Shown: positions 1 to 6,123 of the stretch, piece after piece
How positions within the stretch are numbered: the stretch's first letter is position 1
How the letters are laid out: the number at the start of each line of letters is the position of its first letter
DNA from: a bacterium
Lineage (GTDB): Bacteria > SM23-31 > JAUVVT01
Length of the DNA stretch: 6,123 bases
NCBI GenBank assembly: GCA_030616165.1
Contig: JAUWXV010000220.1
Span: forward strand, 1-6,123
Reading direction: 5' to 3'
Position numbers and translations under genes: made by a program
Notes under the pieces: generated by a model
The model's database searches: none
The model's input: the letters and a program-made list of their open reading frames with translations, nothing else
Told to the model about the DNA's origin: nothing

Positions 1-299
1 AAAGAACGAGGATTATATGGCATATTGAGAGGTGCACGTATTGCGGGAGATGTGCAGAGGTCTGTCCAGAAGAGGCAGTTGTTAATACTAAGGAATTTGA
101 AACCGCAACTAATGATAAGAATGACCTGATAATTGAACAGGAAATCTATATGGCTACCTGTCAGAGATGCGGACGGTGTTTTGAAACAGATAATGTTATC
201 GATAAAATACCCACAAGGCGTTTGAGGGAAGGAGTGAATTTTGTTGGAGAATCTATTCCACGGGAAATTAAAGAAAAATCAAAAGTGAAAACTGCTTAA
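1..299 (+). CDS. hyfH: Group 4 hydrogenase ferredoxin subunit (HyfH/HycF/NuoI-like), 3' part only
   Basis: The 5' end lies outside the window; the reading frame starts at base 3 and gives 98 residues ending in TAA. The visible part holds one complete [4Fe-4S] motif, CTYCGRCAEVCP (visible Cys 11, 14, 17, 21), followed by a conserved stretch with FETATNDKNDL and a second cysteine group CQRCGRCFE (Cys 53, 56, 59) that lacks the fourth Cys and Pro of a classical ferredoxin motif. In HyfH/HycF proteins a similar C-terminal Cys-x-x-Cys knuckle follows two [4Fe-4S] motifs, so the first motif is probably just upstream of the window. In this family the subunit is a cytoplasmic electron-transfer arm that passes electrons to the small subunit encoded downstream (2851-3327). 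Only 28 bp separate it from hyfE, so they are very likely cotranscribed. The symbol is by similarity; an Ech/Mbh or NuoI-type name is the alternative. Confidence 0.8.
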   Translation, partial: RTRIIWHIERCTYCGRCAEVCPEEAVVNTKEFETATNDKNDLIIEQEIYMATCQRCGRCFETDNVIDKIPTRRLREGVNFVGESIPREIKEKSKVKTA

Positions 300-327
300 T
301 TAGTGTTTTAAATGGAGATTTTTAAAT

Positions 328-993
328 ATGGAGAGTAATATATTAATAACTTTGAGTCTTGCAATATTATTGACTTCATTACTTGCGATTGAGACAAGGA
401 ATCTCAGAACAGCAACTATTTTTTATCTTATTCATTCAATTTTTCTTTTTTTGATAATAGTTTCGTATGCTTATATAATGAAAAATCCAACTCTTTATCT
501 CTGGGGTTTAACATGTTTTATAACAAAGGTTGTAATTATTCCATTAATAATATGGCATTATGTTAAGAGGGTTCCAAAAATCGAATACAGACCGTTCATA
601 GGTTTTGCAGTTTCGATTTTTATAGTTACTGTTTTAACCATTAGTTTATTCAATCTATTTCAGCAAGTAATCGATTTTCTTGCTCCGACAGAAGAATCAA
701 CGCAGGAGCCGATACGCTCACTTCTTGCCTCGGCATTTACTATATTTTTAATTGGATTATACTGTTTGATTACAAGAAAAGATGCAGTTAAAACTGTAAT
801 TGGTCTTGCATTTCTTGAAAATGGAGTACACCTTGTCCTTTTGAGTTTAGTTCCAAATTTATCGGAAACAACAATGATAGGAATTCTGACTAATGTGACG
901 GTAATAATATTTGTTTTGCTTTATCTCAGTAGAACAATATATGAAGTCTTTGGCTCAACAGATACAACTAAATTGTCCGAGCTAAAGTATTGA
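328..993 (+). CDS. hyfE: Hydrogenase-4 membrane subunit E (HyfE, NuoK-like)
   Basis: A 221-residue hydrophobic protein, close to the usual length of HyfE (about 215-220). Hydrophobic segments lie near residues 4-20, 28-50, 57-77, 90-112, 131-148, 155-175 and 183-203. The C-terminal half (about 130-205) resembles NuoK: GLYCLITRKDAVKTVIGLAF runs into LENG, whose Glu164 matches the membrane-embedded Glu of NuoK helices used in proton coupling. ATG at 328 is preceded by GGAG at 314-317. In the family this integral inner-membrane subunit helps link the hydrogenase module to the antiporter-like subunits. It follows the ferredoxin gene and precedes hyfF, the E-F order known from hyf operons, but here a 280-bp spacer separates E from F. 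Cytoplasmic charged loop residues (around 119-130) divide the two halves. I am confident of the family; the physiological direction (H2 production or uptake) cannot be read from this gene. Confidence 0.88.
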   Translation: MESNILITLSLAILLTSLLAIETRNLRTATIFYLIHSIFLFLIIVSYAYIMKNPTLYLWGLTCFITKVVIIPLIIWHYVKRVPKIEYRPFIGFAVSIFIVTVLTISLFNLFQQVIDFLAPTEESTQEPIRSLLASAFTIFLIGLYCLITRKDAVKTVIGLAFLENGVHLVLLSLVPNLSETTMIGILTNVTVIIFVLLYLSRTIYEVFGSTDTTKLSELKY

Positions 994-998
994 TGTTA

Positions 999-1014
999 TA
1001 ATACTTAAGTATTA
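999..1014. repeat. Perfect 16-bp palindrome after hyfE
   Basis: TAATACTTAAGTATTA is a perfect palindrome starting 5 bp after the hyfE stop. A further copy of its half-site AAGTATT overlaps the end of hyfE at 985-991, so the central AATACTT (1000-1006) could pair with either neighbour. It could be an operator or a weak hairpin; there is no following T-run that would make it a clear terminator. The function is unknown, and in AT-rich DNA chance is possible. Confidence 0.5.
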
Positions 1015-1080
1015 AATGATTCTTTAGATTTTTATTTAATTCATATAATATGAATAATTCATGAAAAATTTGGCATGATT

Positions 1081-1194
1081 GCTTTTAGTTATTAGTTGTT
1101 AGCTATTATTCATTAAAAGAATGCTTAACAAATTAATTATTAATCTAAAAGCTAATAGTTAAAAGCCAATAGCTGATTGCTGACAGATGATAAC
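1081..1194. repeat. Two facing arrays of 7-bp repeats (heptamer repeat element)
   Basis: The hyfE-hyfF spacer contains five consecutive heptamers of the form GYTNTTA (GCTTTTA, GTTATTA and relatives) at 1081-1115, a 30-bp middle part, and seven heptamers of the opposite orientation (TAAAAGC twice, TAATAGT, CAATAGC and more decayed units) at 1146-1194. The first array is roughly the reverse complement of the second, so the whole could fold into an imperfect long stem. Repeat degeneracy grows toward the right end. No ORF is present. It looks like a short heptamer-type dispersed repeat or MITE-like insertion rather than a gene; no transposase or clear target duplication is visible. Confidence 0.7.
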
Positions 1195-1273
1195 TACAAA
1201 TTCGTTAATAATTCAGAATAAGTATAAATAAAAGTTATTTCATTTAGTATATAGGATAAAATAAGGAACTGTC

Positions 1274-2791
1274 ATGGTAGAATCATTTTTGCCCATAATT
1301 CTTTTTACTGTACCAATTGTGGGAATTTTATTTGTATTTATGTTTAGAAATATTCCTATTAAATATATTAGAGAACTAATAACATTATTATTTCAGGTTA
1401 TAACTTTAATAATTGGAATTATAATTACATCCGAAGTATTTCAAGGAAAAACACTTACAGCAGCAAACAAAGCGTTTTTTGTCGATGGTCTATCGGTTCT
1501 AATGATAGTTCTTGTTAATGTTAGTATAATTTTGATTACTATATACTCGATAAAATATATTTTAAAAGAAAAAGAACTTGGAATTATAAGTGAAAAAAGG
1601 ATAACGCTTTATTATTCATTAATTCTCCTTTTTACCGGAACAATGATGTGGACTGTTACGACAAATCATATGGTAATGCTGTATGTCGCGGTTGAAGGAA
1701 CAACATTAGCCACAGCACTTCTCGTTGCCTTTTACAGGACTCGTGCATCGCTCGAAGCCGGATATAAATATGTACTTCTTGTTGTAGTCGGAATAACCTT
1801 AGCACTACTTGGAATAGTTCTGATATTTTCAGCAGCAGTTCCACATTTGCCTGAAGGAAGCCATGCACTTTTATTAACAGAAGTAGGTAGGATTTCTAAA
1901 TTAATCCCATCTAATATAGCTCTTTTAGCAGTTGTTTTTATGATAGCAGGTTTTGGAACAAAAGCTGGACTTGTGCCCTTTCACGCCTGGCTGCCCGACG
2001 CTCATGCTGAAGCGCCTACTCCTATAAGTGCTCTATTATCAGGTCTGGTAATTAAAGTAGGTGCCTATGCACTTGCAAGAACAGTTACAATTTTTACCGC
2101 TCAACATCATTCAATAATTATCTTTATTGCGATTATGGCATCAGCAGGGATGTTAATTGGAATATTTTTAGCCTGGGCACAGGATGATTTAAAACGTCTT
2201 TTAGCTTTCCATAGCGTTAGTCAGATTGCTTATGTTTTTGAAGGACTCGGATTAGGAACATATATGGGTATTTATGGTGGTTTATATCATTTAGTAAATC
2301 ATACATTTTTTAAGGGGCTTTTATTCTTATCTGCTGGATGCATTATGTATGCTACCAGAGGAAAGCGAAAAATAAGCGAACTTGGCGGTCTTGCCAGTAA
2401 GATGCCAATTACTGCTTTTTGTTTTTTTGTTGGTGCTTTGGCTATGGGAGGAGTGCCGCCTTTTAACGGATTTATGAGTAAGTTTACAATATTCCTTGCC
2501 GCTGGACAGCAGAAACTCTATTGGGCTGCCGCTATTTCCATATTTACTAGTTTTTTAACTCTTGGATGTATGGTGCACGCTGGATATTTAATATTTTGGA
2601 AAAAACCTGCAAAACAAGTGGCTTCTTCTAATAATCCTGAAGAAATCAGGGAAGTCCCGTTTTTAATGTGGGGCAGTATGATAGTATTGGCAGGATTGTG
2701 TTTATTATTGGGGATATATCCCCAAATTATACATCCATTTCTTGATAAAGCAACCGAAGCTATCCTTACAATTTGGGGAGCAGGGGTTTAG
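1274..2791 (+). CDS. hyfF: Hydrogenase-4 subunit F-like proton-translocating membrane protein (NuoL/M/N, Mrp-antiporter family)
   Basis: A 505-residue multi-helix membrane protein, near the length of HyfF (about 525). The proton-antiporter core (about residues 130-420) is intact. Glu141 (AVEGTTLATA) corresponds to the TM5 glutamate, Lys230 (FGTKAG) to the TM7 lysine and Lys261 (VIKVGAYALA) to the TM8 lysine; PFHAWLPDAHAEAPTP spans 235-250, and YHLVNHTFFKGLLF (338-351) supplies the His residues and Lys347 of the distal half-channel. These residues form the proton path in complex I homologues. ATG at 1274 has AAGGAA at 1263-1268, a 5-base spacing. The role is to pump H+ (or Na+) across the inner membrane, driven by or driving electron flow in the hydrogenase module. 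It has no long C-terminal lateral helix like NuoL, which favours HyfF over HyfB. HyfB/HyfD and NuoM/NuoN-like names are the alternatives; the position after hyfE supports F. Confidence 0.87.
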   Translation: MVESFLPIILFTVPIVGILFVFMFRNIPIKYIRELITLLFQVITLIIGIIITSEVFQGKTLTAANKAFFVDGLSVLMIVLVNVSIILITIYSIKYILKEKELGIISEKRITLYYSLILLFTGTMMWTVTTNHMVMLYVAVEGTTLATALLVAFYRTRASLEAGYKYVLLVVVGITLALLGIVLIFSAAVPHLPEGSHALLLTEVGRISKLIPSNIALLAVVFMIAGFGTKAGLVPFHAWLPDAHAEAPTPISALLSGLVIKVGAYALARTVTIFTAQHHSIIIFIAIMASAGMLIGIFLAWAQDDLKRLLAFHSVSQIAYVFEGLGLGTYMGIYGGLYHLVNHTFFKGLLFLSAGCIMYATRGKRKISELGGLASKMPITAFCFFVGALAMGGVPPFNGFMSKFTIFLAAGQQKLYWAAAISIFTSFLTLGCMVHAGYLIFWKKPAKQVASSNNPEEIREVPFLMWGSMIVLAGLCLLLGIYPQIIHPFLDKATEAILTIWGAGV

Positions 2792-2799
2792 AAGTTTAT

Positions 2800-2818
2800 T
2801 TTAATAACTGTTATTAAA
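2800..2818. repeat. 9-bp perfect inverted repeat between hyfF and hyfI
   Basis: TTTAATAAC-T-GTTATTAAA has two perfect 9-base arms around a single T, in the 59-bp hyfF-hyfI spacer. With a one-base centre it reads as a possible dimeric-protein binding site rather than a stable RNA hairpin. No known operator is matched with confidence, and AT-rich chance symmetry is possible. Confidence 0.4.
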
Positions 2819-2840
2819 GCAAAATCAACAATTAGAAGTT

Positions 2841-2844
2841 GGAG
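2841..2844 (+). promoter_or_regulatory. Ribosome binding site that fixes the hyfI start
   Basis: GGAG lies 6 bases before ATG at 2851. A longer reading from TTG at 2839 would place this Shine-Dalgarno sequence inside the coding region, so the ATG is preferred. Confidence 0.7.
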
Positions 2845-2850
2845 TTATAT

Positions 2851-3327
2851 ATGTTAGAAAAATTATGTAAGAAAGCATTTCCAAAATCACTTTGGGTATA
2901 TCATGCCAATACTGGAGCATGCAACGGCTGTGATATAGAAGTAATAAATATTTTAACTCCATATTACGATGCGGAGAGATTTGGAATAAAATTAGTCGGT
3001 TCTCCTCGTCATGCCGATGTTCTTCTTGTCAGCGGTCCTGTAACGCGTCAGTGTGCTCCAAGCTTAAGGAGATTATATGAAGCTGTTCCAAATCCTAAAT
3101 TAGTGTTTGCAATCGGCTCATGCCCGACAGGTGGTTCGGTTTTTTATGACCTTTATAGTTCTTATGGAGGTGCAGATAAAATAATACCGGTAAATTACTA
3201 CATACCTGGTTGTCCCCCCAGACCAGAAGCAATACTTTATGGTATTGCTGTTGCTTTAGGTATTGTTCCGAAAAAGGTGGAAAAAGCTGTTTTGAAGCAC
3301 TTTCCGGAAGGGTATGAAATAAAATAG
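2851..3327 (+). CDS. hyfI: Group 4 hydrogenase small subunit (HyfI, NuoB-like [4Fe-4S] protein)
   Basis: A 158-residue soluble protein of the NuoB/PSST family. It carries the proximal [4Fe-4S] cluster that passes electrons to and from the active-site large subunit. Visible ligands, numbered from ATG 2851, are Cys24 and Cys27 (ACNGCDIE), Cys91 (IGSCPTGG) and Cys121 (PGCPPRPE). The spaced CxGC pair is the form found in group 4 [NiFe]-hydrogenases and their relatives; respiratory complex I NuoB has adjacent cysteines instead, so this argues against an ordinary Nuo complex. The start is set by GGAG 6 bases upstream; an in-frame TTG at 2839 would add four residues. It lies 59 bp after hyfF and is the last gene of the + strand operon, ending just before a bidirectional hairpin. 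The large subunit (HyfG) is not in the window and probably lies upstream, so a true Ni-Fe site cannot be confirmed here. Confidence 0.9.
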   Translation: MLEKLCKKAFPKSLWVYHANTGACNGCDIEVINILTPYYDAERFGIKLVGSPRHADVLLVSGPVTRQCAPSLRRLYEAVPNPKLVFAIGSCPTGGSVFYDLYSSYGGADKIIPVNYYIPGCPPRPEAILYGIAVALGIVPKKVEKAVLKHFPEGYEIK

Positions 3328-3365: not shown

Positions 3366-3393
3366 ATGGTGAAAGTATTTATGCTTTCACCAT
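3366..3393. terminator. Bidirectional terminator hairpin between hyfI and hydF
   Basis: ATGGTGAAAG (3366-3375) and CTTTCACCAT (3384-3393) form a perfect 10-bp stem with the 8-base loop TATTTATG. On the + strand it is followed by CTTTTTATTTT; on the - strand by TTTAAGATATAAAAAAT, a weaker U tract. It lies between convergent operons. The hydF stop codon (3379-3381) is in the loop and the last codons of hydF (encoding MVKA) make one arm of the stem. Confidence 0.8.
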
Positions 3394-4614
3394 CTTTTTA
3401 TTTTGTCGAAATAAAAAATCTTTCAGGTCATTTTCAAATGGCTTAAGTGCTCTATCAAGAAGTCCATGAATTTTTGCTATTAATATACCATAATTTACAA
3501 TTGGCACTTTGTTTTTGTTTGTAATATCAATTCTTCTTAGAATTTCTCTTCTGTTTAACATGCATCCACCACAGTGTATAATAAGTTTATATTGTGAAAT
3601 GTCTTCGGGAAAATCTCCTCCGGCTGTCCAATTTATATTCAACTCTTCACCAACATTTTCTTTAAGCCATCTGGGTATTTTAATCCTTCCTATATCATCT
3701 TTTTGGGGATGATGGGTGCAGGCTTCAGCAATTAATATATTATCTCCCGGTTTCAGTTTATCCACTGCTTCTGCGCCCTCGCTTAATTTTTTTATATCAC
3801 CCCGATATCGTGCAAAGGCAACCGAAAATGAAGTCATTAATATATCTTCTGGAGTTGTTTTTGCAACGATTTCGAATACTTGAGAATCGGTAATTACAAG
3901 TTTTGGCTTTTTTTTAAGGTTAAGAAGTGCCTGTTTAAGTTCTGTTTCTTTGACAACAATAGAAAGTCCTTGGTGGTCAAGAATGTCTCTTAATACCTGA
4001 ACTTGAGGTAGAATCAGCCTTCCTTTAGGTGCTGCGCTGTCAATTGGTGTAACGAGAATGACTGAATCTCCAGGTCCGATTAGGTCTCCAATTATTGTAG
4101 AAGGTCCTGTATCCACCGGTGAAATTTTAGCAAGATATTCTCTGAGATATTTTATTCCCTCACCGGTTACAGAACTGATAAATAAAGGAGGATGCGGAAG
4201 ATTTAATTCTTCATTTCTTATCGAAAATAAATCAATCTTATTGACAATGAATTGATATTTAATTTTGCTTTTTTCAATTTCTCCCACGAGTTCTTTTTCA
4301 AAAGTATCATACCCTAACTGTGGGTCGATTATGATTAAAGCAATATCTGTTTTCCTTAGGATTATTTTTGTTTTTTCATTTCTTTTGACTCCCAGAGTTC
4401 CTACATCATCAATTCCTGCAGTGTCTATTAATACTACAGGTCCAACCGGGAGTATTTCCATATATTTGTAAACAGGGTCGGTTGTTGTGCCGGCAACATC
4501 TTATACAATGGCGATTTCTTGATTTGTTAATGCATTAATCAAACTCGATTTTCCGACATTACGTCTTCCGAATATTGCTATATGTAATCTTTCTCCGCGG
4601 GGGGCAGTCTGCAT
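3379..4614 (-). pseudogene. hydF: [FeFe]-hydrogenase H-cluster maturation GTPase HydF, interrupted by an in-frame stop at codon 38
   Basis: HydF is the cytoplasmic GTPase scaffold on which the diiron subsite of the [FeFe]-hydrogenase H-cluster is assembled and from which it is delivered. Read from ATG 4614, it spans 411 codons, normal for the family. The order is: G1 P-loop GRRNVGKSS (16-24); TAA at codon 38; G2 GTTTD (42-46); G3 DTAG (64-67; DTPG is usual); G4 NKID (125-128); a dimerisation region; and the C-terminal cluster-binding domain with Cys299 (EACTHH), Cys348 and Cys351 (HCGGC). All these motifs are conserved. Homologues read IVSD..GTTTDP here, so TCA has apparently become TAA by one base. 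The start is supported by AGGAG 6 bases upstream and a 3-bp gap after hydE. Translation from the next ATG (4461, codon 52) would give 360 residues without the P-loop and G2, probably unable to bind GTP. A sequence error is a real alternative to a pseudogene. Confidence 0.9.
4501..4503 (-). other. Premature TAA stop codon inside hydF
   Basis: On the - strand the codons read GTA TAA GAT. The + strand has TTA where TGA (Ser TCA on the - strand) would restore the conserved serine, so a change at base 4502 alone explains it. There is no frameshift: the frame is the same before and after the stop. Confidence 0.9.
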
Positions 4615-4617
4615 ATT

Positions 4618-5700
4618 TCACTCCTGCAAAACTAATTTTTTGTGTAATGGGAATCTTTTGTATGAATCTCCCCGATCTTTAGCAACTTTTCTTCCCATAG
4701 AAACAACCATATTTTCGATTTCTTCTTTTAATTTTTCAGGCTCTTTGTATAATTTTTTATTTTTTGGATATATTTCATACTTTTTTCTTAGGTGAACTGG
4801 TGTAACGTTTGGCATTATTACATTTCCCCCCACCTCAAGAATTCGCTGTCTTCCGTTATGAATGTCTATTGTTGAAATGGCTGTTGTTGCAGGAATTAGG
4901 GTATCTTTTGTTATTATCCTTGTAATTGCAACAATCTTTAAAACGAGAGATAAGTCATTTAATTTAATTTTTTCAAGTGGAGTATCTGGATGATGGATAT
5001 AAGGATCGATGGCAATCATATCAAGTTCAAGTTCATCAAACCATTTTATGTCATTTGCAATGCTTTCAGTAGTCTGCCCTGGAAACCCAACAATTATTCC
5101 AGAACCGATTTGGTATCCTATTTCTTTTAATTCAATAACCTTTTTTCGTCTGTTTTCATACTTTAAATCGGGGTGTAATTTATAATATAATTCAGGATCA
5201 GAAGTTTCGAACTTCAAGAGATATCTGTCAGGACCAGCATCAAATATTTGCTCGTATTCTTCTCTTTTTCTTTCACCAATACAAAGCGCTGAGGCAAGAT
5301 TTGTTCTTTGTTTTATCTCTCTGACGATATCAGAAATTATCCTTGCGGTATAAAAGGAGTCTTCGCCGGATTGAAGAACTACTGTTCTGTAACCTAATTT
5401 TTGACATTTTTCAGCGTAATTCACAATTTCTTCAGGCATCAGCCTGTATCGTGATAGCCTTTTATTATCTCTTCTTAGACCACAATAACGGCAATTTCTC
5501 TCACATATATTTGAAAACTCAATTAATCCCCTTAAATGAACATCATCACCCACATATTTTTTTCTGATAAAGTCAGCGACTTTAAAGAGTTCCTGAGATT
5601 CTTCATTATCAAGTTTTAGAAGATTTATTATTTCTTTATTGGTAAATTTTTCTTCTCTATATGCCTTTTCAATGAAATTATGTATATGTTTTTTATTCAT
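4618..5700 (-). CDS. hydE: [FeFe]-hydrogenase H-cluster radical SAM maturase HydE
   Basis: A 360-residue cytoplasmic radical S-adenosylmethionine enzyme that acts with HydG and HydF to build the H-cluster diiron subsite. The SAM-cluster motif CERNCRYCG gives Cys66, Cys70 and Cys73, within a typical HydE context (KKYVGDDVHLRGLIEFSN before it, GLRRDNK after). Further conserved blocks are VVLQSGED (107-114), GSGIIVGFPGQT (199-210), IPATTA (269-274) and GGNVIMPNVTP (291-301). The C-terminal cysteines that bind an accessory cluster in some HydE proteins are absent, as in many members. The frame stays open upstream to 5886, but those 62 codons run through two palindromic repeats and have no family similarity, so ATG 5700 (MNKKHIHNF) is chosen; no clear Shine-Dalgarno sequence precedes it. 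hydF follows after 3 bp and uses a ribosome site inside the end of hydE. hydG is not in the window. Confidence 0.93.
   Translation of the reverse strand: MNKKHIHNFIEKAYREEKFTNKEIINLLKLDNEESQELFKVADFIRKKYVGDDVHLRGLIEFSNICERNCRYCGLRRDNKRLSRYRLMPEEIVNYAEKCQKLGYRTVVLQSGEDSFYTARIISDIVREIKQRTNLASALCIGERKREEYEQIFDAGPDRYLLKFETSDPELYYKLHPDLKYENRRKKVIELKEIGYQIGSGIIVGFPGQTTESIANDIKWFDELELDMIAIDPYIHHPDTPLEKIKLNDLSLVLKIVAITRIITKDTLIPATTAISTIDIHNGRQRILEVGGNVIMPNVTPVHLRKKYEIYPKNKKLYKEPEKLKEEIENMVVSMGRKVAKDRGDSYKRFPLHKKLVLQE
4621..4625 (-). promoter_or_regulatory. Ribosome binding site of hydF inside the 3' end of hydE
   Basis: On the - strand AGGAG overlaps the last hydE codons and lies 6 bases before ATG 4614. 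It supports that ATG as the authentic hydF start and suggests translational coupling, so the region carrying the premature stop is truly coding. Confidence 0.75.
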
Positions 5701-5815: not shown

Positions 5816-5835
5816 GACAGACATTCCTGTCTGTC
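5816..5835. repeat. Perfect 8-bp inverted repeat with 4-base loop
   Basis: GACAGACA, loop TTCC, TGTCTGTC: a perfect stem of 8 bp, 22 bp from the neighbouring GTAGAG palindrome. Its right end overlaps the stop codon of the receiver-protein gene by two bases. It could fold in RNA read through from that gene, but no U tract follows on the - strand. Together with 5744-5793 it may be one composite repeat insertion. Confidence 0.7.
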
Positions 5836-6123
5836 ATCTGAATATAAAATAAAAAATGACAAAGAGAATAATAATATTAACAACAACGCCTATAGCGATG
5901 TGAAGAAATGTTTTTCTCTCTTTTTGTAATCTAATATTTTCTCTAATCAGCCTTTGGTGGTCAACGATTCTCCTCAAAAGATAACTTATTTTTTCAGGAG
6001 GGAAAGGTTTCATAATATAGTCATATGCTCCTTGTTTCATAGATTCTACTGCATTGTCCACGGTTGCATAGGCAGTTATCATTATAACGGGTATATCCTC
6101 GTATTTTTCCTTTATTTTTTTTA
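5834..6123 (-). CDS. Response-regulator receiver protein with C-terminal transmembrane anchor, 3' part only
   Basis: The 5' end is outside the window. The 95 visible residues begin KKIKEKYEDIPVIMITAYAT, the end of a CheY-like receiver domain: Thr16 (MITAYA) and Lys38 with the following Pro (YIMKPF) are the conserved switch Thr and Lys; the phosphoacceptor Asp would lie upstream. The sequence closest resembles NtrC- or HD-GYP-type receivers. After the domain comes a charged helix (about 44-70, RRIVDHQRLIRENIRLQKER), probably coiled coil, and then one strongly hydrophobic segment (about 72-94, FLHIAIGVVVNIIILFVIFY and on) that ends the protein at TGA. No DNA-binding or enzymatic output domain follows. 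It therefore looks like a receiver tethered to the inner membrane by its C-terminus. It is 133 bp upstream of hydE on the same strand, so a link to hydrogenase expression is possible but unproven. A frameshift that cut off an output domain is the alternative. Confidence 0.82.
   Translation of the reverse strand, partial: KKIKEKYEDIPVIMITAYATVDNAVESMKQGAYDYIMKPFPPEKISYLLRRIVDHQRLIRENIRLQKERKTFLHIAIGVVVNIIILFVIFYFIFR

Follow-up and report, generated by a model that had tools for sequence, protein, structure and literature searches.

Does the in-frame TAA in the hydF gene of this locus reflect a genuine loss of HydF, the maturation GTPase of the [FeFe]-hydrogenase H-cluster, or an error in the sequence? 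The window, meaning the whole stretch of DNA that we analysed, is one entire contig (6123 bases) of a 3.74-Mb draft genome in 343 contigs, estimated to be 90.2% complete. Translation of the minus strand from 4614 to 3379 gave 411 codons with a single internal TAA (Table 1). In a genome search in which this stop was read through, the product scored 556 bits against TIGR03918, over the curated family cut-off of 325.55, and the match extended along the whole length, profile positions 2-392, with the TAA inside it. The assignment, frame and coordinates given in a preliminary description of this DNA were thereby confirmed. The Pfam domains MMR_HSR1, HydF_dimer and HydF_tetramer followed in this order, and the best structure matches of the product were three solved HydF proteins (PDB 5lad, 5kh0 and 3qq5). 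The G1 and G2 motifs, which lie on either side of the stop, are intact, as are G3 (DTAG, residue 64), G4 (NKID, residue 125) and both parts of the cluster motif CxH...HCxxC (CTH at 299 and HCGGC at 347). The coding signal, measured as hexamer scores, was high on each side of the stop. Since the frame is conserved both before and after the stop, chance is ruled out as the origin of the frame itself.

Table 1. Features of the hydEF locus, the HydS-type gene and other interrupted genes of the same genome
Feature	Position	Strand	Stop	Remarks
hydF, [FeFe]-hydrogenase H-cluster maturation GTPase	3379..4614	-		411 codons, one interruption; TIGR03918, Pfam, PDB
G1 / P-loop GRRNVGKS	4546..4569	-		From residue 16, upstream of stop, intact
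G2 motif GTTTD	4477..4491	-		From residue 42, downstream of stop, intact
In-frame stop, codon 38 of hydF	4501..4503	-	TAA	In switch 1, between P-loop and GTTTD; Ser in relatives
First ATG after stop, codon 52	4459..4461	-		No Shine-Dalgarno-like sequence before it
AGGAG ribosome site of hydF	4621..4625	-		From sequence; inside hydE end, upstream of first ATG
hydE, radical SAM maturase, intact	4618..5700	-		TIGR03956, 344.5 bits (cut-off 254.6)
HydS-type sensory [FeFe]-hydrogenase/kinase gene, damaged	L009 1187-2; contig C301, about 539-1724	-		Divergent from intact hydG
Isocitrate/isopropylmalate-type dehydrogenase, single in-frame stop	L115:4081		TAA	Alignment to solved structures crosses stop
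D-aminoacylase-like amidohydrolase, single in-frame stop	L133:3279		TGA	Alignment to solved structures crosses stop
D-threonine-aldolase-like enzyme, single in-frame stop	L191:1474		TAA	Alignment to solved structures crosses stop
Unnamed conserved protein, single in-frame stop	L112:3322		TGA	Judged by eye only

Codon 38, where the frame ceases to be that of an uninterrupted HydF, falls within the switch 1 region of the GTPase domain (residues 31-46 as numbered in PMC6212873); S38 is named in that study among the HydF residues with the greatest change in dynamics upon GTP binding. The corresponding column was Ser in 75 of 75 relatives, all from other genomes, as the preliminary description had supposed. 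Among the near-invariant columns of HydF, the gene departed in one of 67, namely the stop, and the earlier statement that there is no other decay in hydF was borne out. An otherwise conserved frame that carries an inactivating lesion would make hydF a candidate recent pseudogene. Comparison of the site with close relatives, proposed earlier, could be made only at a greater distance, in the relatives with Ser: hydF, hydE and hydG were searched for in same-class relatives and found in none of the assemblies, so there is no close comparison site. Reassignment of the codon, thought unlikely from the outset, was rejected because each of the three stop codons terminates long frames in the part of the genome that was sampled (TAA 238, TGA 117 and TAG 58).

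The signals for translation of hydF are as first described: an AGGAG ribosome site stands ahead of the initial ATG, from which the hydE stop codon TGA is separated by 3 bases. Initiation at this proper start would yield a 37-residue peptide carrying the P-loop only. Restart at codon 52 is unlikely. A Shine-Dalgarno-like sequence was sought before the ATG at 4461 and not found, and for this reason the 360-residue HydF is unlikely. The frame from codon 52 lacks both G1 and G2, in line with the earlier remark that a product made from it would be without an effective GTPase.

The window also contains group 4 [NiFe] hydrogenase/complex I subunit-like genes (3-3327; a NuoI-like fragment and HyfE-, HyfF- and NuoB-like genes). 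These are convergent with hydEF, and the large subunit is absent from the contig. Upstream of hydE, the edge of the contig truncates a response-regulator-like gene; its terminal part, at 5834-6121, encodes a receiver domain followed by a hydrophobic C-terminus. The GC content and tetranucleotide profile of the window fall inside the range of the other contigs, and a foreign or misbinned contig was rejected as an explanation.

HydE had been expected to be an orphan if hydF were lost. This proved incomplete, as an intact HydG is encoded on contig C301 (544 bits, cut-off 312). Departures from near-invariant columns numbered three in hydE and three in hydG, within the range of relatives, and both enzymes thus have the intactness expected of a working H-cluster maturation pathway. 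The second copy of hydF that had been suggested as a way out was not found when the 90.2% complete assembly was searched with TIGR03918; the next-best matches were other GTPases. What the maturases would act on was also missing. A search of the assembly for the H-cluster domain PF02906 (Fe_hyd_lg_C) gave no match, and one with TIGR02512 gave ferredoxin-like stretches only; at 90% completeness, then, the assembly holds no [FeFe]-hydrogenase catalytic domain. Three of the nearest TIGR02512 candidates for a classical HydA were rejected, being NuoG/formate-dehydrogenase (FdhA)-like, iron-sulfur and Nfn-like proteins according to Pfam. A completeness of 90% leaves room for a hydrogenase gene absent from the assembly.

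The gene beside hydG belongs to the HydS type, whose layout comprises two N-terminal clusters, the H-domain and a Cx2Cx4Cx16C motif (PMC8163306). Here it is in two pieces. The first contains two [4Fe-4S] motifs and runs as far as APSFPAAFNIR, after which comes a stop. The second lies in a different frame; it starts within LDKEKYNKDVEEY and continues with the FeS motif and then histidine-kinase and ATPase domains. The pieces align to residues 19-104 and 351-654 of an intact homologue of 701 residues (L212), and to residues 5-92 and 336-641 of L205, encoded in a same-class genome; intact HydS homologues thus exist, one of them within the class. About 245 residues are absent from the gene (a deletion of about 740 bases) and the frame is shifted; the junction lies near position 1455 of contig C301. 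The missing part is the H-cluster domain, which in L212 matches PF02906. In addition, Arg replaces the third Cys of the Cx2Cx4Cx16C motif, a position occupied by Cys in 23 of 23 homologues. To judge from its sequence, the gene is a pseudogene, or at most encodes a kinase without a hydrogen sensor. Because the assembly has no H-cluster domain and that of HydS is deleted, the sole visible client of HydEFG is apparently dead.

Proteins with an H-cluster domain are present in two other genomes of the class (L205, L206 and L215 in G003 and G005). No hydE, hydF or hydG was found in these two drafts, which reflects either incompleteness or true absence.

Two facts therefore go beyond the preliminary description: the client is lost, and, as detailed below, similar single stops occur in other conserved genes. 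We give roughly even credence to our preferred explanation, a genuine and recent nonsense inactivation of the lineage's only hydF, in a maturation pathway without its client. With no hydrogenase left to mature, selection on hydEFG would have been relaxed, and hydF would have been struck first among the three genes, with too little time since then for more damage. Tolerance of the stop in hydF would be explained by the loss of the client. Damage to two genes of so small a pathway would exceed the expectation from a background of about 0.5% of genes. The clean remainder of hydF, together with hydE and hydG, says that the event would be either recent or an error. Several points count against decay. 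Intact hydE and hydG suggest that there was a client until recently, or that one resides in the 10% of the genome that the assembly lacks; hydF appears free of other damage, the stop being its one departure in the 67 columns; and base errors may be common, given four other single-stop genes in 1.23 Mb.

The last point leads to the leading alternative, that the stop is an error of sequencing or consensus calling, or that the draft took up the allele of a minority strain, and that hydF is intact in the population. We regard this as a serious possibility, if a less than even one. A scan of 1.23 Mb of the genome looked for stops with coding-like sequence on both sides in one frame, and homology was used to examine the candidates. 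Apart from hydF, one in-frame stop was seen in each of four conserved genes, with a family match or conserved sequence extending beyond it (Table 1). For the interrupted D-threonine-aldolase-like gene, intact paralogues were also matched, using an approximate query sequence. The four genes show that a single in-frame stop is a type of lesion not special to hydF in this genome, and the occurrence of the same lesion in other conserved genes keeps the sequencing-error explanation alive. The same scan of 0.4 Mb of a finished genome gave just one case, in a transposase-like frame, a control sample too small to call the rate here abnormal. True bacterial genomes also contain recent pseudogenes. A further scan, for coding sequence ahead of first start codons, recovered HydS and otherwise gave mostly noise. 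An error or strain allele is also consistent with the fragmented state of the assembly and with the perfect conservation of hydF apart from the stop. Our literature search turned up no work on erroneous stop codons in drafts. What argues against an error is the HydS gene of the same pathway: its deletion, frameshift and lost ligand cannot be one base-calling error.

Two further explanations accept the stop as real, and we consider both improbable. In the first, readthrough or suppression of the TAA would provide low-level full-length HydF, in keeping with the perfectly conserved sequence past the stop and with intact hydE and hydG; against it, TAA is the most frequent terminator in this genome, no other gene points to systematic decoding of TAA, and the client gene is broken. 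In the second, with equally low probability, hydF is dead and an [FeFe]-hydrogenase is matured by another HydF encoded in the unassembled tenth of the genome. The incomplete assembly and the intact hydE and hydG would allow this, but it requires two genes to be missing, the additional hydF as well as the hydrogenase gene, and none of the genomes listed had more than one HydF scoring above the cut-off. It is very improbable that the 360-residue HydF without G1 and G2 serves as a scaffold: the open 360-codon frame keeps the dimer, tetramer and cluster-binding domains, but its ATG has no ribosome site, mutagenesis found the GTPase motifs of HydF to be essential for maturation (PMC6212873), and 75/75 relatives keep the Ser column in the N-terminal part. 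Equally improbable is the combined proposal that the TAA is real and that either full-length HydF arises by readthrough, or the GTPase-less 360-residue form acts as a scaffold with HydE and HydG for a client other than a classical [FeFe]-hydrogenase.

If the stop is real, the order in which the [FeFe]-hydrogenase system was lost would be the sensor's H-cluster domain and the scaffold HydF first, with the two radical-SAM enzymes still intact. If it is an error, this is a draft genome whose single in-frame stops need checking against the reads. Matches to hydE, hydF and hydG in drafts are no proof of a working [FeFe]-hydrogenase.

Compared with known HydF proteins (TIGR03918; 5lad, 5kh0 and 3qq5), the gene described here has the full length in frame, all motifs, the domain order and a hydE neighbour, and its product is 56% identical to Pelosinus HydF. 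It differs in the TAA at the Ser38 position and in that no client hydrogenase is visible in the genome. A recent bacterial pseudogene with a single nonsense mutation likewise has a conserved frame broken by one stop, and here a pathway partner is damaged too; unlike such a pseudogene, the hydF lesion is known from one draft assembly only. The HydS-type gene departs from the sensory [FeFe]-hydrogenases of group C/D in the deleted H-cluster domain, the shifted frame and the Arg in place of the third FeS-motif Cys, whereas it has kept their two N-terminal [4Fe-4S] motifs, the FeS motif region and the kinase.
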